DNA from: Bradyrhizobium sediminis
GTDB lineage: Bacteria; Pseudomonadota; Alphaproteobacteria; Rhizobiales; Xanthobacteraceae
Assembly: GCF_018736105.1 (NCBI RefSeq)
Contig: NZ_CP076135.1
Span: forward strand, 1,796,001 to 1,860,000
Length of the DNA stretch: 64,000 nucleotides
Reading direction: 5' to 3'
A model generated the notes under the pieces. That model did not search any database. It saw nothing but the letters and a program-made list of their open reading frames with translations, and was not told the origin of the DNA. Positions within the stretch are counted from its first letter, which is position 1. Every line of letters starts with the position of its first letter. Below are positions 53,353-64,000 of the stretch, in pieces. The position numbers and the translations under genes were made by a program.

Positions 53353-54570
53353 GTGAGCGAACCGCTGGTCATCGTCGGCAATGGAATGGCCGCCGCGCGT
53401 CTGGTCGACGAACTGACGAAGGCCGCACTCGGGCGTTACGCCATTGCCGTGATCGGCGACGAACCGCGGCTCGCCTATAACCGCGTGCTGCTGTCGTCGG
53501 TGCTCGCGGGCGAGATCGCCTCCCACGACATCGAACTCCGGCCGGCTTCGTGGTGGCGCGACCGCGGCGTCACCCTGAAATATGGCTGCGTCGCCACCGG
53601 GATCGACGTCGGCCGCCGCGAACTCAAGATCGCGGGCGACGAGAGCATCACGTTTTCGAAGCTGGTGCTCGCCACCGGCTCGACGCCGCTGCGGCTCAAC
53701 GTGCCCGGCGCCGAACTCGCCGGCGTCCATACCTTTCGCGACAGCCGCGACGTCGATCTGTTGTTGACGCTGGCGGCCCGCAGGAAACGCGTCGTCGTGG
53801 TCGGCGGCGGATTGCTCGGACTCGAGGCGGCCTACGGCCTCGCCAAGGCCGGCGCCCCGGTGACCCTGGTTCATCTGATGGACCGGCTGATGGAGCGGCA
53901 GCTCGATGCGCCGGCGGCGGAGCTGTTGAAGTCGCTGGTCGAACGCAAGGGCATCGAGATCCTGCTCAATGCCAATACCGCGCGCATCCACGGCGAGACC
54001 CATGTCGAGGGCGTCGAACTGGCGGACGGCCGCCGGATCGATGCCGACGCGGTGATCTTCGCGGCCGGCATTCGGCCGAACACCGCGCTGGCGAAGGAGG
54101 CCGGCATATCGGTCAATCGCGGCGTCGTCGTCGACGACCATCTGCAGACCGGCGCGGCGGATGTGTTCGCGATCGGCGAATGCGCCGAGCATCGCGGCAT
54201 TTGCTATGGCCTGGTCGAGCCGGCCTACGAGCAGGCCCGCGTGCTGGCGCAGCATCTTGCGGGCCGGGCGGCCGGCTATCGCGGCAGCGTGGTGGCGACC
54301 AATCTCAAGGTCTCCGGCGTCAGCGTGTTCTCGGCCGGCGACTTCATGGGCGCCGACGGCAGCGAAGCCATCGTGCTCAAGGACCTCAGGCGCGGCACCT
54401 ACAAGAAGCTGGTGATCTCGGCTGGCCGGCTCACCGGCGCGGTGCTGGTCGGCGATGTCGCCGGCGCACTCTGGTATCTCGAACTGATCCGGGACCGCAA
54501 ATCCATTGCGGGCATCCGTGCCGACATGATGTTCGGGCGCTCGCTGGCGCTTGCCTCGGAGGCGGCGTGA
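53353..54570 (+). CDS. FAD/NAD(P)-binding oxidoreductase of the assimilatory nitrate reduction operon
   Basis: 405 residues from GTG 53353. Class II pyridine-nucleotide oxidoreductase: IVGNGMAAARLVDEL at the N-terminus, LAYNRVLLSSVLAGE (the NirB-type variant), LATGSTPL, second Rossmann motif VVGGGLLGLEAAYGL near residue 155 and VFAIGECAEHRG. It equals the N-terminal FAD half of nitrite reductase NirB without the sirohaem domains. Best interpreted as the electron-donating flavoprotein for NasA, whose gene follows after 13 bp. Confidence 0.88.
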   Translation: MSEPLVIVGNGMAAARLVDELTKAALGRYAIAVIGDEPRLAYNRVLLSSVLAGEIASHDIELRPASWWRDRGVTLKYGCVATGIDVGRRELKIAGDESITFSKLVLATGSTPLRLNVPGAELAGVHTFRDSRDVDLLLTLAARRKRVVVVGGGLLGLEAAYGLAKAGAPVTLVHLMDRLMERQLDAPAAELLKSLVERKGIEILLNANTARIHGETHVEGVELADGRRIDADAVIFAAGIRPNTALAKEAGISVNRGVVVDDHLQTGAADVFAIGECAEHRGICYGLVEPAYEQARVLAQHLAGRAAGYRGSVVATNLKVSGVSVFSAGDFMGADGSEAIVLKDLRRGTYKKLVISAGRLTGAVLVGDVAGALWYLELIRDRKSIAGIRADMMFGRSLALASEAA

Positions 54571-54583
54571 CCCGGTTGCTGAC

Positions 54584-57328
54584 ATGACGGCCGTCGATCC
54601 CGCATGGAGTTTATCATCGGGCCGCGCTCCGCGCGGACCCGTTGGCGCCATCAGCACCACCTGCGCCTATTGCGGCGTCGGCTGCGGCGTGCTGGCGACG
54701 CCCGATGGCCGCGGCGGTGCGGCGATCTCGGGCGATCCCGAACATCCCGCCAATTTCGGCCGGCTGTGCTCGAAGGGCTCGGCGCTCGGCGAAACCCTCG
54801 GGCTCGAAGACCGGCTGCTCTATCCGATGATCCGCTGCAGCAAGGGCACCATGGAGCAGGTGGCCTGGAGCGACGCGCTCGACCATGTCGCCAATCGTTT
54901 CGCGCACATCGTCAAGCGTGACGGCCCCGGCGCGGTCGCGTTCTATCTCTCCGGGCAACTCCTGACCGAGGATTACTACGTCGCCAACAAGCTGATGAAG
55001 GGATTCATCGGCAGCGCCAATGTCGATACCAATTCGCGGCTGTGCATGTCCTCCTCGGTCGCCGGTCACCGCCGCGCGTTCGGCGCCGATACCGTGCCCG
55101 GCTGCTATGAGGATCTCGAGCAGGCCGACCTGCTGGTGCTGGTCGGCTCCAACGCGGCATGGTGCCATCCGGTTCTGTACCAGCGCATGCTCGCCAACAA
55201 GCAGAAGCGCGGCGCCCGCATGGTTGTGATCGACCCGCGGCGGACCGATACCGCCGGTGATGCCGAGCTGTTTCTGGGCCTGAAGCCCGGCACCGACACC
55301 GCGCTGTTCTCGGGCCTGCTGGTGCATCTTGCCGACAGCGGCGCGCTCGATTCAGATTACATCGAACGATACACCGGCGGTTTCGACGAGGCGCTGGCGC
55401 GGGCGCGCTGCATCGCCGGCAGCGTCGGCGCGACCGCGCTGGCGACCGGCCTTTCCGAACAGGACGTGGCGGACTTCTTCCGGATCTTCGCCGCGACCCC
55501 GCGCGTGGTGACGCTGTACTCGCAGGGCGTCAACCAGTCGGCGCAGGGCACCGACAAGGTCAATGCCATCATCAACTGCCATCTCGCGACCGGGCGGATC
55601 GGCAAGCCGGGCGCGTCGCCGTTCTCGCTGACCGGGCAACCCAATGCGATGGGCGGCCGCGAGGTCGGCGGACTCGCCAACCAACTCGCTGCCCATATGG
55701 GCTTTTCGCCGCCCGACATCGACCGCGTGCGCCGGTTCTGGAAGGCCCCGCGCATCGCCACCCATGAGGGACTGAAGGCGGTCCAGATGTTCGAGGCGAT
55801 CGCGCGCGGCGAGATCAAGGCGCTGTGGGTGATCGGCACCAATCCGGCGGTGTCGTTGCCGGACGCCGACGCCGCCCGCGCCGCGCTGAAGAAACTCGAG
55901 CTGTTCGTGGTCTCGGAGAATGTGCGTTCCAACGACACCGTGAACGCCGGAGCGCATGTGCTGCTGCCGGCGCAGGCCTGGGGCGAGAAGTCCGGCACGG
56001 TGACCAATTCGGAACGCCGGATATCGCGGCAGCGCGCCTTCCTCGCGCCGGCGGGCGAGGCCAGGCCGGACTGGTGGATCCTCAGTGAAGTGGCGAAACG
56101 GCTCGGCTTCGGCGCGGCGTTCGATTTCAACTCCGCCGCCGAAATATTCCGCGAGCACGCCGCCTTGTCTGCGTTCGAGAACAACGGCGGCCGCGATTTC
56201 GACATCGGCGCCCTGCAGTCGCTGTCGGATCAGGCCTTCGATGCGCTGACGCCGGTGCAGTGGCCGACGCGCCAGGACAACAGCCAGCCGCAGCCGCGCT
56301 TTTTTGCCAATGGCGGCTTCTTTTCAAGCGACTTCAAGGCGCGTTTCATCGCGCCGGAGATCCCCGCGCTGCGCACGGAGACCACCGCCGGCCGGCCGCT
56401 GCGGCTGAATACCGGCCGCATCAGGGATCAATGGCACACCATGACCCGCAGCGGCCTCAGTCCGCGGCTGGGCCAGCATCTGCCGGAGCCGTTCGTCGAG
56501 GTTCATCCCGACGACGCGCTGAAATTCGGCGTGACCGACGGCAGCTTCGCGCGCGTCACCACCGATCACGGACAATGCACGCTCAAGGTCGTGGTCAGCG
56601 AACGGCAGCAGCGCGGCATGCTGTTCGCGCCGATCCACTGGAGCGAGGCGACCGCGACCGGCTCGCGCGTCGGCGCGCTGGTGGCGCCGTTCACCGACCC
56701 ATTCTCCGGCCAGCCCGAGAACAAGGCGACGCCGGCGTCGATCACGCCTTACGAATTCGTGTTCCGGGGCTTTGCGCTGTCGCGCGCCCCGCTCGCCTTG
56801 CCCGACCATGCCTGGTGGGCGCGCGTGGCGGTGCCCGGCGGCTACGGCTATCTCTTGGCCGACAATGCCGATCTCAGGGGATGGCAGTCCTGGCTGCGTT
56901 CGGTGGCCGGCGAGGATCTTGCCGAATACAAGGATTTCGGCGGTGGCGTTTACCGCGCCGCGTGCTTTGCCGCCGACCGTATCGAGGCCTGCCTGTTCAT
57001 CGGGCCGGCGCAGGACGCCGGCGACTGGAACGTCGTCAAGCAGTTGTTCGCGGCCGACAGGCTCGACGACGAGCAGCGCCGCATGCTGCTGTCGGGCAAA
57101 TCGACCGACGGGCTGGCCAGCGCCGGACCGATCGTCTGCGCCTGTTTCGGCGTCGGCCGCACCACCATCTGCGACAGCATCGCCGGCGGGGCGCGCACCG
57201 CCGCCGAGATCGGCGCCAGGCTGAAAGCCGGCACCAATTGCGGCTCGTGCATTCCGGAACTGAAACGGCTGATCGCGCAGGCCGGCTCCACCGATCCCGA
57301 ACAACGGCAGCTGGCGGCGGCCAATTAG
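54584..57328 (+). CDS. nasA: assimilatory nitrate reductase catalytic subunit (molybdopterin)
   Basis: 914 residues from ATG 54584. An N-terminal [4Fe-4S] site (C27, C30, C34 in CAYCGVGC, and the later LCSKGSALG) is followed by the bis-MGD domains: SGQLLTEDYYVANKLMKGFIG, NTDSRLCMSS-like NTNSRLCMSSSVAG, VIDPRRTDTA, VTLYSQGVNQSAQGTDKVNAI, TGQPNAMGGREVGGLANQLAAH. A molydopterin dinucleotide-binding domain with TGRIRDQWHTMTRSG follows. The C-terminus adds a BFD-like [2Fe-2S] domain (CACFGVGRTTICDSI, NCGSCIPELKRLI). Cytoplasmic; reduces nitrate to nitrite using electrons from the adjacent flavoprotein. No nitrite reductase gene follows in the window. Confidence 0.95.
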   Translation: MTAVDPAWSLSSGRAPRGPVGAISTTCAYCGVGCGVLATPDGRGGAAISGDPEHPANFGRLCSKGSALGETLGLEDRLLYPMIRCSKGTMEQVAWSDALDHVANRFAHIVKRDGPGAVAFYLSGQLLTEDYYVANKLMKGFIGSANVDTNSRLCMSSSVAGHRRAFGADTVPGCYEDLEQADLLVLVGSNAAWCHPVLYQRMLANKQKRGARMVVIDPRRTDTAGDAELFLGLKPGTDTALFSGLLVHLADSGALDSDYIERYTGGFDEALARARCIAGSVGATALATGLSEQDVADFFRIFAATPRVVTLYSQGVNQSAQGTDKVNAIINCHLATGRIGKPGASPFSLTGQPNAMGGREVGGLANQLAAHMGFSPPDIDRVRRFWKAPRIATHEGLKAVQMFEAIARGEIKALWVIGTNPAVSLPDADAARAALKKLELFVVSENVRSNDTVNAGAHVLLPAQAWGEKSGTVTNSERRISRQRAFLAPAGEARPDWWILSEVAKRLGFGAAFDFNSAAEIFREHAALSAFENNGGRDFDIGALQSLSDQAFDALTPVQWPTRQDNSQPQPRFFANGGFFSSDFKARFIAPEIPALRTETTAGRPLRLNTGRIRDQWHTMTRSGLSPRLGQHLPEPFVEVHPDDALKFGVTDGSFARVTTDHGQCTLKVVVSERQQRGMLFAPIHWSEATATGSRVGALVAPFTDPFSGQPENKATPASITPYEFVFRGFALSRAPLALPDHAWWARVAVPGGYGYLLADNADLRGWQSWLRSVAGEDLAEYKDFGGGVYRAACFAADRIEACLFIGPAQDAGDWNVVKQLFAADRLDDEQRRMLLSGKSTDGLASAGPIVCACFGVGRTTICDSIAGGARTAAEIGARLKAGTNCGSCIPELKRLIAQAGSTDPEQRQLAAAN

Positions 57329-57348: not shown

Positions 57349-58272
57349 TCACGATTTTCGGTGCGTCGCGTTGACGGCGATGGCGGCGGCCGCGGTGCGG
57401 TTCTCGACGCCGAGTTTCGAGTAGATCTGTTCGAGGTGCTTGTCGACCGTTCGCGGGCTCAGGCCCAGGATCTGCGCGATGTCGCGGTTGGTCTTGCCCT
57501 TGCTGAGCCATGACAGCACTTCGCCCTCCCGGGTAGTCAGGCCCAAATCCTTGCTGAACTCCTGCGGCAGGCCGGCGCCGTTGTCCTTGGCAAGGCGCAA
57601 CAGGAATTCATTGGGGCCGAGCTTGCCCATATATTGCAGCCGCAGCGCCTCGTTGTTCGGGAACGAGGCGAGCGCAGGGGTCTTCGCCCCGGCCTTGCCC
57701 TTTTGCGCAGCATCGAGCCACTGCAGCATCGGTTGCGGCAATTCCAGTTCATCGCCGGCCCCGAGATTGTCTGACAGCAGCTTCTGCGCCTGCGGCGTCG
57801 CCCACATGATCTTGCCCTGGCGGCTCACCGCCATCAGGAAGCGGCCGGAGACGTCGAGCGCAGTCTGCGCGCTCTGCGTCATCCTGGCGTTGGCGAGGTG
57901 AACCCTGATCCGGGCCAGCATTTCCTCGATCACGATCGGCTTGGTCACGTAATCGACGCCGCCGGCCTCCAGGCCGCGCACGATGTGCTCGGTTTCGGCG
58001 AGCCCGGTCATGAAGATCACCGGCACGTTGGCGAGGCCGGCGTCCCGCTTCAGCCGCCGGCAGGTTTCAAAACCGTCCATGCCGGGCATCACGGCGTCGA
58101 GCAGGACGATGTCCGGCGTGATCTGATCGACGATCCGCATCGCGGCGGCGCCGTCCATCGCCACCATCACGGTCATCCCCGCGCCATCGAGCGCGTCGGT
58201 CAGGAGCCGTAGCGTCTCCGGGGAATCGTCGACGACGAGCGCGACGTCGCGTTTGCTGGGGTCAGTGGTCAT
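57349..58272 (-). CDS. response regulator with LuxR-type output, partner of the NCS1-type hybrid kinase
   Basis: 307 residues. Receiver domain at about 8-125 (LVVDDSPETLRLL, phospho-acceptor D59 in IVLLDAVMPGMDGFE, VIFMTGL, VTKPI). A middle part of about 100 residues resembles a degenerate PAS. The LuxR helix-turn-helix lies at about 236-295 (LTTREGEVLSWLSKGKTNRDIAQILGLSPRTVDKHLEQIY in pieces). Its ATG overlaps the end of the hybrid kinase gene by 11 bp, so they are translationally coupled. It converges on nasA, 20 bp away, and is a good candidate to control the nrt/nas and urt genes; this is inference. Confidence 0.9.
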   Translation of the reverse strand: MTTDPSKRDVALVVDDSPETLRLLTDALDGAGMTVMVAMDGAAAMRIVDQITPDIVLLDAVMPGMDGFETCRRLKRDAGLANVPVIFMTGLAETEHIVRGLEAGGVDYVTKPIVIEEMLARIRVHLANARMTQSAQTALDVSGRFLMAVSRQGKIMWATPQAQKLLSDNLGAGDELELPQPMLQWLDAAQKGKAGAKTPALASFPNNEALRLQYMGKLGPNEFLLRLAKDNGAGLPQEFSKDLGLTTREGEVLSWLSKGKTNRDIAQILGLSPRTVDKHLEQIYSKLGVENRTAAAAIAVNATHRKS

Positions 58273-61200
58273 AGCTGTGCAATGTCTTCAATGTGGCCAT
58301 GAACTGATCGAGGTCGAAGCGATCGATCAGCGCGCGCATCTGGGTGACGAAATCGGCATGCTCGGGGTGGTCGGCGCCGATTTCGGCGAGCTTGACCTGA
58401 ATGGCCCGGATGTAGCCCATCTGTCCGAGGCTGATGAGTTCCTCGATGTGCCGCAGCGGCGGTCGCGATCCCGAGTCCGGCTGCCAGCAGGAAGCCGGAA
58501 CCTGGTCGGTCTCATATTGCCATTCGATCTTGAGCAACTGCCGGATCAATTCCAGCAGCTTTGGAATATCGATCGGCTTCATCAGATAGCCGTCATGAAA
58601 TGGCTGCGCCAGGGGGGTGCCGTGCGCCTCCAGCGCGCTGGCGGAAACCATGAGGATGCGGGCCTGGTGATGGCCGGTGGCGCGCAGCGTTTCCGCTACC
58701 GTCCAGCCGTCCATGCCGGCCATCGAGATATCCAGCAGGAACAGATCGGGCCGGCAATGCTGGGCGAGCGTCAGACAGGCGGGTCCGTCCGGCGCGCTCA
58801 GCAGGATGAAGCCAAGCGGCGTCAGCACCTCGCGCAACAGATCGCGCTGGGTCGGATCGTCGTCGGTGATCAGAATGGTCTTGCGCGGGCCGTGATAGCC
58901 GAAGATCGGCGCGTCGACCGGCGCGATCCGGGTCGGGTTGGTGACTTCCGACAACAAGAGCTTGACGCGGAAGGTAGAGCCCTTGCCGACCGTGCTCACG
59001 ACCTGGATGTCGCCGCCCATCACGCCTGCGAGCAGGCGGCTGATCGTCAAGCCCAGACCGGTGCCGGTCTGCGGCTGCGATACGCCGAGCGCGCCGCGTT
59101 CGAACGGCGCAAAGATGCGCTCGAGGTCGGAAGCCTGGATGCCGGGGCCGGTGTCGATCACTTCGAACTCGGCGACCGGGCTGCGGTAATGCACGATGAA
59201 CTGCACGCTGCCCACTTGCGTGAACTTGATGGCGTTCGACAACAGGTTGATCAGAATCTGGCGCAGGCGCTTCTCGTCGGCGAACACCACGAAGGGCAGC
59301 ACCGTCGGTCGCTTGAACACGAAGTCGATGCCCTTGGCGGCGGCCTGCAGGCGGAACATGCCGACCAGCTGGTCGAGAAATTCGCTGAGGCGAACCTCGT
59401 CCCGCGACAGATACAGCCGGCCGGCCTCGATCTTGGAGATATCGAGAATGCCGTCGATCAGCCCGGACAGGTGATCGGCGCTGCGGCGGACCACGCGCAC
59501 CTGATCGCGCGGCTTGGGCAAGAGGCTCGAATCCTGCTCCAGCAGCTGGGCGTAGCCGGAGATCGCGTTCAGCGGCGAGCGCAGTTCGTGGCTGAGGCCG
59601 ACGACATAGCGGCTTTTCGCAAGGTTGGCCGATTCGGCGACCTCCTTGGCGCGCTGCAGTTCGGCGTCGGTTCGCTTGTGTGCGTCGATCTCCTGGATCA
59701 GGAGCGCGGTCTGCCGTCTCGTTTCGGCTTCCGCCGCGCTCCGGCTCTGCTGCGCCAGTACGAACAGCCAGGCGACCACGCCGATGATGATGGTCAGCGC
59801 GAAGAACACTTTCCACAACACGTCCGATAGCTGCAGATTGTCGGCGTGCACCGTCGCCGAGGTCTGCAGATAGATCAGGGCGAGCGTCAGCCCGACCAAT
59901 CCGGCGGAGACCGCGAACACGCCGAGATAGTGTCCGAGCTGCGAATTGATCCGGGCATAGATCGGCTGCGGCAGCAGCTTGCCCAGCGTCTCCGACACCT
60001 GTGCCTGGATCCGCGCATGCGGCTTGCAGAGATCATGGCAGCGGGCGTCGAGCGAGCAGCACAGCGAGCAGATCGGGCCGGCATAGGCGGGGCAGGAGGC
60101 CATATCCTCCGGCTCGAAGGTATGCTCGCAAATACAGCACTGGATCGCCTCGATATTCTGCCAGCTCCGCTTCGGCTTCCGCGCGATGTAGTACTTGCCG
60201 TCGGTGGCCCAGGCGATCAGGGGTGCTGTGACGAAGGCCACCGCCAGCGCAACGAACGGCGCCAGCGCCTTCGCGGTCGGTCCGAACAGGCCGTAGAACG
60301 CGCTGATCGAGACGATGGTGGCGATGCTCATGGCGCCGACGCCGACCGGATTGATGTCGTAGAGATGCGCGCGCTTGAACTCCATCTGCTGCGGGCGCAG
60401 GCCGAACGGCTTGTTGACCACGAGATCGGCGACCAGTGCGCCGACCCAGGCGATGGCGACGTTGGAGTACAGCGCCAGCGTCTGCTCCAGCGCCTTGTAG
60501 ACGCCGATCTCCATCAAGAGCAGCGCGACCAGCACGTTGAACACCAGCCAGACCACGCGGCCGGGATGGCTGTGGGTGAGGCGGGAGAAGAAATTCGACC
60601 AGGCGATCGAACCGGCATAGGCGTTGGTGACGTTGATCTTGATTTGCGCCAGCACCACGAACGTTCCGGTCAGGGCCAGCGCGAGGTCCGGCTGCGACAG
60701 CACGTAGTGAAAGGCCTCGAGATACATGTGCGCCGGCTCGGCGGCATGTTCGGCCGATACGCCGTGGCTGAGTGCGAAAAAGGCGAGGAACGATCCCGCC
60801 AGCAACTTGATGGCTCCGACGACGATCCAGCCGGGACCGGCGCTGAGCATCGCGATCCACCACGATGTCCTGGAACTTCGCCGGTCGCGCGGCAGGAAGC
60901 GCAGGAAGTCGACCTGCTCGCCGATCTGCGCGATCAGCGAGAACACGACCGAGGCCGCGGTTCCAAACAACAGCAGGTCGAGATGGCCGTTGGGATCGCC
61001 GTGCTCGCCGGGAAATTTGGTCCACTCCACGAAGGAATGCCGGCTGGCAAGCGCGATGGCGGCGAACGGCAGGATGTTGAGCACGAACCAGATCGGCTGC
61101 GTCCACAGCTGGAAGCGGCTGATCAGGGTGATGCCGTATGTGACCAGGGGGATGATGACGATCGCACTGATGAGATAGCCGACGGGCCGCGGGATTCCGA

Positions 61201-61633
61201 GACAAAGTTCGAGCGCGGTGGCGAGGATGACGGCTTCGATCGCGAAGAAGATGAAGGTGAAGGAGGCGTAGATCAGCGAGGTGATGGTCGAGCCGATGTA
61301 ACCGAAGCCGGCGCCGCGCGTCAGCAGGTCGATGTCGATGCCGCATTTGGCGGCGTGGTAGGCGATCGGCAGGCCGCAGCAGAAGATGATGACGCTGACC
61401 ACCAGGATCGCGGCAGTGGCGTTGGTGACGCCGTAATTGAGGGTGATGGTGCCGCCGATCGCTTCCAGCGCCAGGAACGAAATCGCGCCCAGCGCGGTGT
61501 TGGCGACCCGGGCCGCGGACCAGCGCCGCGCGCTCTTGGCCGTGAAGCGCAGCGCGTAGTCTTCCAGCGTCTGGTTGGCAACCCACTGATTATATTGGCG
61601 CCTGACGCGGTCTATCCGCTGCCGCCCTGCCAC
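58262..61633 (-). CDS. hybrid sensor kinase with an N-terminal NCS1-type permease module
   Basis: 1123 residues from GTG 61633, which has AGGAG seven bases upstream; the TTG at 61681 lacks one. Order of parts: a complete NCS1 (cytosine/purine/hydantoin permease-like) transporter with about 12 helices (30-485; marker ALGAISFLALEAIGGTITLNYG, GIDIDLLTRGAGFGYIGS); a nine-cysteine cluster at 499-536 (CCIC, C-x7-C, SLCC, CHDLC), probably metal-binding; two further helices (about 570-628); HisKA with H682 in GLSHELRSPLNAISGY; HATPase_c (INLLSNAIKF, VIDTGPGIQ, GTGLGLTISRLLAGVMGG); receiver with D968 (LFLLDISMAGMDGW); and a helical C-terminal domain of about 90 residues. Probably senses or transports a nitrogen compound, as it is divergent from urtA. 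Confidence 0.85.
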   Translation of the reverse strand: MAGRQRIDRVRRQYNQWVANQTLEDYALRFTAKSARRWSAARVANTALGAISFLALEAIGGTITLNYGVTNATAAILVVSVIIFCCGLPIAYHAAKCGIDIDLLTRGAGFGYIGSTITSLIYASFTFIFFAIEAVILATALELCLGIPRPVGYLISAIVIIPLVTYGITLISRFQLWTQPIWFVLNILPFAAIALASRHSFVEWTKFPGEHGDPNGHLDLLLFGTAASVVFSLIAQIGEQVDFLRFLPRDRRSSRTSWWIAMLSAGPGWIVVGAIKLLAGSFLAFFALSHGVSAEHAAEPAHMYLEAFHYVLSQPDLALALTGTFVVLAQIKINVTNAYAGSIAWSNFFSRLTHSHPGRVVWLVFNVLVALLLMEIGVYKALEQTLALYSNVAIAWVGALVADLVVNKPFGLRPQQMEFKRAHLYDINPVGVGAMSIATIVSISAFYGLFGPTAKALAPFVALAVAFVTAPLIAWATDGKYYIARKPKRSWQNIEAIQCCICEHTFEPEDMASCPAYAGPICSLCCSLDARCHDLCKPHARIQAQVSETLGKLLPQPIYARINSQLGHYLGVFAVSAGLVGLTLALIYLQTSATVHADNLQLSDVLWKVFFALTIIIGVVAWLFVLAQQSRSAAEAETRRQTALLIQEIDAHKRTDAELQRAKEVAESANLAKSRYVVGLSHELRSPLNAISGYAQLLEQDSSLLPKPRDQVRVVRRSADHLSGLIDGILDISKIEAGRLYLSRDEVRLSEFLDQLVGMFRLQAAAKGIDFVFKRPTVLPFVVFADEKRLRQILINLLSNAIKFTQVGSVQFIVHYRSPVAEFEVIDTGPGIQASDLERIFAPFERGALGVSQPQTGTGLGLTISRLLAGVMGGDIQVVSTVGKGSTFRVKLLLSEVTNPTRIAPVDAPIFGYHGPRKTILITDDDPTQRDLLREVLTPLGFILLSAPDGPACLTLAQHCRPDLFLLDISMAGMDGWTVAETLRATGHHQARILMVSASALEAHGTPLAQPFHDGYLMKPIDIPKLLELIRQLLKIEWQYETDQVPASCWQPDSGSRPPLRHIEELISLGQMGYIRAIQVKLAEIGADHPEHADFVTQMRALIDRFDLDQFMATLKTLHSYDH

Positions 61634-61698
61634 TTCTGCACTCCTGACCCGAAGCCCGTGCACATGCAAGGCCCGGTCCAAAACCTACGTCGCTATTT

Positions 61699-61741
61699 TG
61701 CGGTGCAATATACGCGATCTTGCGTATCTGTGCACCGCACA
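61699..61741. promoter_or_regulatory. nested palindromes in the divergent kinase/urtA promoter region
   Basis: TGCGGTGCA (61699-61707) and TGCACCGCA (61731-61739) are exact inverted complements, and inside them ATACGC-N6-GCGTAT (61710-61727) is a second perfect inverted repeat. The right edge also forms TGTGC-ACC-GCACA (61729-61741), the motif seen before nrtA. Position between divergent genes suggests regulator binding for one or both. Confidence 0.55.
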
Positions 61742-61797: not shown

Positions 61798-63057
61798 ATG
61801 TCAGACGAGATCAAACGGGGCCTGCAGTCTCCGCTTCGCCGCAAACTGCTGATGGGAGCGGCCGCTCTGCCAGCCATGGCGCTGCTGCCGCGGGTATCAT
61901 TCGGTGCCGGGCCGGCGACTTCGGCCGTCAACACCACGGGACTTGCGGTGACCGACACCGAAGTCACGGTCGGCATCCTGCATTCCGCGACCGGCACGAT
62001 GGCGATCTCCGAAACCGGCTCGATCCAGGCCGAAAAGCTGGCCATCGAGCAGATCAACGCCATGGGTGGTGTGCTTGGCCGCAAGATAAAGATCATTCAG
62101 GAAGACGGCGCCTCTGACTGGCCGACTTTCGCGGAGAAGGCCAAGAAGTTGCTGGTTAACGACAAGGTGGCCTCGATCATGGGCTGCTGGACCTCGGCGT
62201 CGCGCAAGGCGGTGCTGCCGGTGATGGAGCAGTACAACGGCATGCTCTATTACCCTACCTTCTATGAAGGGCTCGAGCAGTCCAAGAACGTGATCTACAC
62301 CGGCCAGGAAGCGACTCAGCAAATTCTCGCCGGCATCGACTGGATCACCAAGGAGAAGAACGCCAAATCGTTCTACTTCATTGGTTCCGACTACATCTGG
62401 CCGCGTACCTCGAACAAGATCGCGCGCAAGCACATCGAGAACTTCCTGAAGCTGAAGGTCGTCGGCGAGGAATACTTCCCGCTCGGCCACACCCAGTTCA
62501 ACTCGGTGATCAACAAGCTGAAGCTGACCAAGCCCGATGTGATCTTCACCGACGTTGTCGGCGGTTCCAACGTCGCGTTCTACAAGCAGCTCAAGGCGGC
62601 CGGCATCGACCTGTCGAAGCAGACCCTTCTGACCATCTCGGTCACCGAGGACGAGATCGACGGCATCGGCGGCGAGAACATTGCCGGCGCCTACGCCTGC
62701 ATGAAGTACTTCCAGTCGCTGAAGAACGAGAACAACGAAAAGTTTGTTGCCGCGTTCAAGAAGATGTGGGGCGAGAAGACGGTGATCGGCGACGTGACGC
62801 AGGCCGCTTATCTCGGCCCGTGGCTGTGGAAGGCCACCGTCGAGAAGGCGGGTTCCTTCGACGTCGACAAGGTTGCGGCGGCTTCGCCCGGCATCGAGTT
62901 CAAGGGTGCGCCGGAAGGCTATGTCCGGATCCACGAAAACCACCATCTGTGGTCGAAGACCCGCGTGGGCAAAGCCAAGCTGGACGGGCAATTCGAGGTG
63001 GTGTTCGAGACCGCCGACCTGATCCAGCCGGATCCGTTCCCCAAGGGCTATCAATAA
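61798..63057 (+). CDS. urtA: urea ABC transporter substrate-binding protein
   Basis: 419 residues from ATG 61798. A Tat-like leader (LRRKLLMGAAALPAMALLP) is followed by the family 6 binding-protein fold: TVGILHSATGTMAISETGSIQAEKLAIEQINAMGGVLGRK in pieces, GCWTSASRKAVLPV, YYPTFYEGLEQSKNVIYTG, GSDYIWPRTSNKIARKH and GDVTQAAYLGPWLWK, all strongly typical of UrtA. Binds urea, or short-chain amides in the FmdD relatives. First gene of the urt operon; the permease gene follows after a hairpin. Confidence 0.94.
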   Translation: MSDEIKRGLQSPLRRKLLMGAAALPAMALLPRVSFGAGPATSAVNTTGLAVTDTEVTVGILHSATGTMAISETGSIQAEKLAIEQINAMGGVLGRKIKIIQEDGASDWPTFAEKAKKLLVNDKVASIMGCWTSASRKAVLPVMEQYNGMLYYPTFYEGLEQSKNVIYTGQEATQQILAGIDWITKEKNAKSFYFIGSDYIWPRTSNKIARKHIENFLKLKVVGEEYFPLGHTQFNSVINKLKLTKPDVIFTDVVGGSNVAFYKQLKAAGIDLSKQTLLTISVTEDEIDGIGGENIAGAYACMKYFQSLKNENNEKFVAAFKKMWGEKTVIGDVTQAAYLGPWLWKATVEKAGSFDVDKVAAASPGIEFKGAPEGYVRIHENHHLWSKTRVGKAKLDGQFEVVFETADLIQPDPFPKGYQ

Positions 63058-63180: not shown

Positions 63181-64000
63181 ATGTTCGGCGACTATTCGAT
63201 TGGCGATCTGGGCTCCATTTTCGTCATGCAGGGCTTCGCGGGCCTGATCCTGTTTTCCGTCTACGTGCTGATGGCGCTCGGGCTTGCGATCATCTTCGGC
63301 CAGATGGGCGTCATCAACATGGCGCATGGCGAGTTCATGATCCTAGGCGCCTACGTCACCTGGCTCACCTCCAGCGCTTTTCAGCACTACTTGCCGTCGC
63401 TGTTTTCCGGATACTTCTTTATCGCGATGGCGCTGGCCTTCGTCGCCTCCGGTTCGCTCGGCATGCTGGTCGAATGGGCGCTGATCCGGCATCTCTACAA
63501 GCGCCCGCTGGATACGCTGCTCGCCACCTGGGGGTTGAGCCTTATCCTGCAGCAGGCCTATCGATCGATTTTCGGTGCCCGTGAAGTCGGCGTCGAGCTG
63601 CCGCAATGGATGCTGGGTTCGCTGCACGTCACCGAAAGCATCGAGGTCCCGATCAACGGCGTGTTCGTGATGGCTTTGACAGTGCTGATCACGGTCGCCG
63701 TGGCTTACGTCATGTACAAATCGCGCTGGGGCCGCCAGGTCCGCGCCGTGGTGCAGAACCGCATCATGGCCGGCGCGGTCGGCATCAACACCGAGAAGGT
63801 CGATCGCTACACCTTTGGCCTCGGCTGCGGCATCGCCGGTGTCGCCGGCAGCGCCTTCACGATGATCGGCTCAACGGGGCCGACTTCCGGCCAGCTCTAC
63901 ATCGTCGATACCTTCCTGGTGGTGGTGTTCGGCGGCGCAGCCAGCCTGATCGGCACCATCGCCTCGGCATTCAGCATCTCGCAGACACAATCCACGCTCG
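63181..64000 (+). CDS. urtB: urea ABC transporter permease UrtB (cut by window end)
   Basis: About 273 residues are visible before the window ends. A LivH-type branched-chain permease: VLMALGLAIIFGQMGVINMAHGEFMILGAYVTW in pieces, LLATWGLSLILQQAYRSIFG, SRWGRQVRAVVQNRIMAGAVGINTEKVDRYTFGLGCGIAG in pieces, and VVVFGGAASLIGTIASAF near the end. The expected last helix and tail lie outside. Start ATG 63181 is preceded by GACGGAGAAAC. Confidence 0.93.
   Translation, partial: MFGDYSIGDLGSIFVMQGFAGLILFSVYVLMALGLAIIFGQMGVINMAHGEFMILGAYVTWLTSSAFQHYLPSLFSGYFFIAMALAFVASGSLGMLVEWALIRHLYKRPLDTLLATWGLSLILQQAYRSIFGAREVGVELPQWMLGSLHVTESIEVPINGVFVMALTVLITVAVAYVMYKSRWGRQVRAVVQNRIMAGAVGINTEKVDRYTFGLGCGIAGVAGSAFTMIGSTGPTSGQLYIVDTFLVVVFGGAASLIGTIASAFSISQTQSTL

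Follow-up and report, generated by a model that had tools for sequence, protein, structure and literature searches.

What might a sensor histidine kinase perceive when its input domain resembles a permease? This question is raised by a gene on the minus strand of Bradyrhizobium sediminis contig NZ_CP076135.1, in a stretch of 64,000 nucleotides (positions 1,796,001 to 1,860,000; hereafter the window), which encodes a hybrid kinase with an NCS1-type membrane domain and lies divergently to an amide/urea transport operon. Kinases fused to transporters are known from the SSS (PMC7918813, PMC13022988) and Amt (PMC5764959) families, as far as the available parts of these papers go, a limit that also applies to the papers cited below. 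To these would be added NCS1 as a permease family fused to kinases, in a group of at least 8,000 homologues; our literature search, outside the reach of which most subscription papers lay, found no paper recognizable as describing such a fusion. We propose that a repurposed NCS1 permease probably senses short amides or urea and signals via the kinase to a LuxR-type regulator and on to the urt-fmdA-amidase operon. The domain identity, the kinase–regulator pairing, the gene contexts and a conserved palindrome were observed directly.

Architecture of the sensor kinase

The reading frame 58262..61633 (minus strand) runs from GTG 61633 to the stop at 58262 and encodes 1,123 residues, numbered here from this GTG (Pfam positions minus 16); a TTG upstream at 61681 is also open. 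Hydropathy and a structural model place a permease-like bundle up to about residue 480, followed by helices at residues 565–594 and 599–639. The protein comprises an NCS1 permease-like membrane domain (residues ~20–486, 60176..61576), an eight-cysteine domain (residues 499–536, 60026..60139) and two further membrane helices (residues ~565–627, 59753..59941). Pfam then assigns HisKA (residues 673–738, 59420..59617) with the phospho-acceptor His682, HATPase_c (residues 786–894, 58952..59278) and a receiver (Response_reg, residues 920–1030, 58544..58876) with Asp968, and the chain ends in a helical region (58265..58468) that matches nothing in Pfam. His682 is kept in 62/62 aligned relatives and Asp968 in 60/62, the remaining two rows being gapped at this position. 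With HisKA and its His, HATPase, and receiver and its Asp all found, the protein is a hybrid histidine kinase. The linker between permease and kinase gave no PAS match and no convincing match of another kind in Pfam, for which it was left unchecked whether a STAC model is included.

A search with residues 1–640 yielded at least 8,000 homologues at E ≤0.001, i.e., every candidate scored, so the similarity is far from chance. Shorter NCS1-kinases of 894 and 899 residues were seen in two loci adjoining formamidase genes (L058:8002-10683 and L059:8166-10862); they end after the ATPase domain and lack the receiver, as judged by Pfam for L058 and by frame length for L059.

The input domain is NCS1-like

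Profile comparison linked the N-terminal domain to the NCS1 family (TC 2.A.39), and model comparison gave the fold of Mhp1 and CodB. Direct recognition of the N-terminus by sequence in Pfam or the PDB was not obtained, and an intermediate protein was needed. The N-terminal 640 residues had no Pfam match at E ≤1 when searched within the whole protein. PF02133 (Transp_cyt_pur) was matched by 0/44 kinase relatives at E ≤10, with a few chance-level matches to other families, and gave no match at E ≤1e-5 across the whole own genome; a free-standing bridge permease matches it at 35.9 bits. Judged by profile and modeled fold, the input domain is NCS1-like and lies beyond the reach of PF02133. An SSS (SLC5) identity was rejected (hhalign Prob 2.0; hidden Markov model match in 1/44 relatives, E 0.42), and the PF00474 matches of the own genome fall elsewhere, not in the kinase.

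An earlier note on this DNA, made from the sequence letters, had described a 1123-residue frame with an NCS1-type transporter bundle, two more helices, HisKA/HATPase and a receiver. Frame check, Pfam, hydropathy and modeling bear this layout out. Of the comparisons that the note had suggested, that with Mhp1 agreed in fold; the profile search supported NCS1, though not through Transp_cyt_pur itself, and SSS was not matched.

The nearest permeases found belong to a free-standing purine-cytosine permease family around P0121 (27–30% identity), whose members lack kinase and Cys domain but share with our protein a Glu in transmembrane helix (TM) 3 and a (K/R)-I-N motif in TM8. Free-standing relatives carry the source names allantoin or cytosine permease, and automatic annotation calls some members of the kinase family "signal transduction histidine kinase/purine-cytosine permease-like protein".

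Residues of the former substrate pocket

Alignment to Mhp1 places F129 at W117, E133 at Q121, N334 at N314 and N337 at N318, with K332/I333 at S312/T313. In Mhp1, S312 and T313 are the Na2 hydroxyl residues, and the TM3 Trp of Mhp1 and CodB stacks on the substrate ring. CodB has Gly at the Q121 and Ala at the N318 position. Common to Mhp1, CodB and the kinase are the fold and a TM8 Asn; differences from Mhp1 are the exchanges S312/T313 to K332/I333, W117 to F129 and Q121 to E133, and only our protein is fused to a kinase. The position of the TM3 Trp, which is Trp in 38/40 NCS1 proteins, is Phe or Leu in the kinases. The residues that face the pocket rank with the best conserved of the whole kinase, and E133, K332, N334 and N337 are identical in 113/113 kinases labeled for gene context (see below). 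Since the Lys at the Na2 position is invariant, ligand binding is probably sodium-independent.

The amide-type kinases have F129 and T336 in 78/78 cases. In the urea type, F129 is changed to Leu in 22/35, and T336 to Met in 19/35 and to Ala in 2/35; one or both positions are altered in 24/35, and 11/35 are the same as the amide type.

Amide and urea genes beside the kinase

Upstream of the kinase, on the plus strand, lie genes for a UrtA-type substrate-binding protein of an amide/urea ABC transporter (61798..63057) and the UrtB permease (63181..64000), the latter continuing past the window end. Beyond it we found urtC, urtE, fmdA (formamidase, 765.8 bits) and an aliphatic amidase gene (715 bits); of the Urt proteins, the check covered UrtB, UrtC and UrtE, and all three were identified. 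UrtA passes the urea model TIGR03407 with 540.8 bits (cut-off 492.75). Because a formamidase is encoded in the operon, the urea name of UrtA may mislead as to its substrate. The genome has a second UrtA, 37% identical to that of the window and encoded about 6 kb from the single urease alpha gene above cut-off. By gene content, the window copy is of the amide type despite its UrtA passing the urea model.

We compared 120 loci: 39 chosen for spread from class and phylum tallies, 80 named loci (the best 80 of 578 confirmed in a contig scan of all prokaryotes) and the window; L056, a free-standing permease, was excluded from kinase counts. Loci were called amide type with FmdA in the locus or a UrtA at least 60% identical to that of the window, and urea type with urease or with a UrtA that is closer to the other UrtA of the genome. 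This gave 78 amide-type and 35 urea-type loci, and 7 in neither class, four of which (L133, L141, L162, L171) have less than 1 kb before the kinase. FmdA occurs in 70/78 and urease in 0/78 of the amide type; the urea type has second-type UrtA in 29/35 and urease in 15/35, with overlap. Formamidase-type, urt or urease genes are borne by 113/120 loci, and a UrtA-type transporter gene by 105/120 (76 window-type, 29 second-type). At the genome level, UrtA was present in 52/53 genomes with the kinase (including one fragment, G503) compared with 120/345 others (Fisher p 2e-20, uncorrected for relatedness).

The survey for co-occurrence with urtA that the earlier note had called for hence came out positive, and on both points on which that note had staked its proposal, a transporter family was found for the N-terminal helices and nitrogen genes were found beside homologues. 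Its placement next to nitrate genes proved incidental, as NasA was found in 4/80 named loci, all Bradyrhizobium, and NrtA in 0/80 (flanks up to 10 kb). The supposed link to urea acquisition holds insofar as the transporter is of the urea type, while the urt genes of the window are part of an amide operon that also encodes a formamidase and an aliphatic amidase. From its ligand list, the urea-like class fits; genes for nucleobase, hydantoin or allantoin use were not met among the annotated neighbors, where no systematic search for them was made.

Some loci differ in their surroundings. In Azospirillum an NCS1-kinase (L164:4659-7019) stands beside chemotaxis genes (MCP, CheW), possibly pointing to another ligand or a link to taxis; L070 and L171 are in the same clade. 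In L071 (genome G260) a CHASE3 kinase and an AAA_33/APH protein are encoded upstream, no amide or urea gene was found in the locus, and the palindrome described below is present.

Partner regulator and putative operator

The gene downstream of the kinase (57349..58272, minus strand, overlapping the kinase stop by 11 bp) encodes a response regulator with a receiver (Asp59) and a LuxR/GerE helix-turn-helix. All of the first 40 loci contain a homologue, which in 38 of them is the next gene downstream in the same orientation and either overlaps the kinase gene or follows it within 167 bp. Over the 120 loci, homologues were detected in 113 at a strict and 117 at a looser cut, the latter adding shorter forms in L085, L168, L172 and L181; of the remaining three, L058 and L059 each encode a divergent regulator on the other strand, and in L137 the contig stops after the kinase. 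This constant arrangement agrees with the coupling to a LuxR-type regulator stated in the earlier note, and the LuxR/NarL-type protein is likely the two-component partner of the kinase. The regulators of L085, L168, L172 and L181 (Pseudomonas/Stutzerimonas type) lack the middle segment that separates receiver and helix-turn-helix, with frames of 230–239 residues in L168, L172 and L181 compared with 307 in the window.

Between kinase and urtA lies an 18-bp palindrome, ATACGC-N6-GCGTAT (61710..61727, scanned core 61711-61726), a putative operator of the divergent promoters. Within the stretch from 320 bp upstream to 30 bp downstream of the kinase start, TACGY-N6-RCGTA was present in 62/119 loci (43 amide, 17 urea, 2 neither; one locus with less than 60 bp upstream was left out). 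Its density was 1.64 per kb near the kinase start vs 0.013 per kb in the remainder of these loci, and five other dyads occurred in 0–6 loci each in this region. In a non-redundant set, 31/83 loci had the exact palindrome and 51/83 had it with at most one mismatch, compared with 0.5% and 4.3% of 1,545 control pieces, and the whole genome of 5.45 Mb contains three such sites. From this conservation we infer that the regulator binds the palindrome. The listed UrtA start, TTG 61720, falls inside the palindrome, and ATG 61798 is likelier; automatic annotation of start codons may obscure the operator. Each of L085, L168, L172, L181 and L136 has two palindromes at a distance of 22 bp. Sigma-54-like candidate elements (TGG-N-AC-N5-TTGC) occur near many kinase starts and are shared between Bradyrhizobium loci.

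An eight-cysteine domain apparently particular to this kinase family

The earlier note had pointed out a nine-cysteine segment as a possible metal or redox switch. Residues 499–536 indeed contain nine Cys, of which eight (C499, C502, C514, C522, C525, C526, C532 and C536) are invariant in 62/62 aligned relatives and C500 is not. A profile of the domain had 28 matches in 26/200 genomes, all inside these kinase frames, when at most the 29 best first-look candidates per genome were considered; among these 200 genomes, the domain as defined by this profile is met only in this kinase family. No confident PDB or Pfam match was obtained for it, the single weak resemblance being to zinc fingers.

Distribution and change of context

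The kinase is widespread: it was found in 53/398 sampled genomes of the phylum and in 20/289 of the class, the own genome being counted in both. The best 80 of the 578 confirmed loci came from alpha-, beta- or gammaproteobacteria wherever the class was readable (78/80). A quick tree was made from 86 kinases and 4 permeases; with 80 of its rows labeled amide or urea, parsimony required 6 changes of label (7 with two pocket columns masked), and the amide group alone 8 compared with a shuffled mean of 27.4. These few changes suggest that context is inherited, yet has switched repeatedly. Well-supported branches alone provided 4 independent amide/urea pairs (7 on all branches); per pocket residue, 1–3 of the pairs agree with context and 0 are opposite.

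Proposed mechanism and alternative explanations

In the mechanism that we favor, short amides of the formamide or acetamide type, or urea in urea-type relatives, would occupy the old NCS1 pocket, and the conformational change would reach the kinase by way of the cytoplasmic eight-Cys domain and the final two membrane helices. Two structural zinc ions are most likely bound by the cysteines. Architecture, gene overlap and constant pairing suggest that the LuxR-type regulator encoded alongside receives phosphate from the kinase; bound to the palindrome in the divergent intergenic region, it may then switch on the urt-fmdA-amidase operon. The receiver within the kinase probably has a modulating or phosphate-relaying role. 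A more far-reaching version, to which we give slightly less than even credence, is that the NCS1 fold has become the receptor by which proteobacteria recognize the N-C=O group of urea and short amides, with E133, N334 and N337 contacting the ligand, K332 replacing sodium and a private eight-Cys coupler, re-aimed between amide and urea about six times by parsimony (four on well-supported branches) with little alteration of the pocket (Leu for F129, Met or Ala for T336).

Several observations weigh against the favored mechanism. L070, L071 and L164 have adequate flanks yet no amide or urea genes. The exact palindrome is missing in 57/119 loci and occurs in 0/6 loci with urease and without UrtA (L057, L060, L061, L062, L090, L093). 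Lys or Arg at the Na2 position also marks free-standing permeases (Arg in 24/24) and is not specific to the sensors, and the pocket differences between amide and urea type are not significant once relatedness is allowed for, there being too few independent pairs.

A transceptor of the kind put forward for CbrA, in which the NCS1 domain would still carry amide or urea and the kinase would respond to the flux, appears rather unlikely. It would explain why the fold and its polar residues in TM3 and TM8 are retained, and CbrA both takes up histidine and signals (PMC13022988, PMC7918813); yet the Urt-type ABC transporter in 105/120 loci makes a second carrier look redundant, and in the similar fusion Ks-Amt5 transport was lost (PMC5764959). 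The permease-like domain might instead be a mere anchor or read another cue (liganded UrtA, membrane potential, general nitrogen state), with the regulator alone setting operon specificity. Context indeed switched six times on the quick tree with the make-up of the sensor unchanged, and 11/35 urea-type loci share both compared pocket residues with the amide type; the strong conservation of the pocket-facing residues and the three two-copy genomes with one kinase per context (G428 with L084 and L057, G492 with L092 and L093, G513 with L088 and L089) make this improbable.

Urease needs nickel, and the eight-Cys domain itself could be a redox or metal switch (Fe-S, Zn, or Ni for urease) acting on the amide/urea genes, as its absolutely conserved cysteines and its confinement to the kinase family among the 200 genomes might suggest. 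This we regard as quite improbable, given that formamidase-type contexts dominate (78/120) without an evident link to nickel and that the weak zinc-finger resemblance is more like a structural site. Finally, NCS1 homology and the cytosine or allantoin permease names of free-standing relatives would fit sensing of a nucleobase, hydantoin or allantoin, with the amide/urea genes induced for downstream salvage. The amide and urea genes at 113/120 loci and the Phe or Leu replacing the TM3 Trp leave this very doubtful.

Relation to known systems

CbrA, CrbS(MxtR) and PrlS likewise combine a LeuT-fold permease with a sensor kinase, and the SSS hybrid kinase PrlS has a LuxR-type regulator, PrlR, as its partner (PMC7918813, PMC13022988). 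All three are SLC5(SSS) sensor kinases, and CbrA and CrbS carry a STAC domain; our protein has NCS1 in place of SSS, an eight-Cys domain and two helices before the kinase, no PAS match in Pfam, and amide/urea operons as putative targets. With the Amt-histidine kinase Ks-Amt5 of Kuenenia it has in common that a nitrogen-compound transporter became a kinase input domain (PMC5764959), whereas transporter family and ligand are unrelated and the available part of that paper describes no Cys domain. Formaldehyde sensors FlhS/RfdS were considered as a precedent and dropped, as the neighbors, once annotated, turned out to be urease genes.

The putative target is of the FmdDEF/UrtABCDE amide-urea operon type. 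In P. veronii the order is amiE-fmdA-fmdB-urtABCDE, and urtABCDE beside fmdA was proposed to take up formamide (PMC13209695); in Ectopseudomonas urtABCDE occurs with a histidine kinase and a LuxR-type regulator, fmdA being next in locus numbering (PMC13296017). The available parts of both accounts do not describe a permease domain of the sensor or the role of a ligand. The present locus provides a concrete candidate for the receptor of urea and short amides, together with a putative operator sequence and a mutable pocket, so that amide/urea induction can be tested directly in rhizobia and marine bacteria.

Beyond the regulator gene, the window encodes at 53353-57328 a NirB-like flavin adenine dinucleotide protein and, next to it, a molybdoenzyme that resembles nitrate reductase and carries a BFD [2Fe-2S] domain at its C-terminus.
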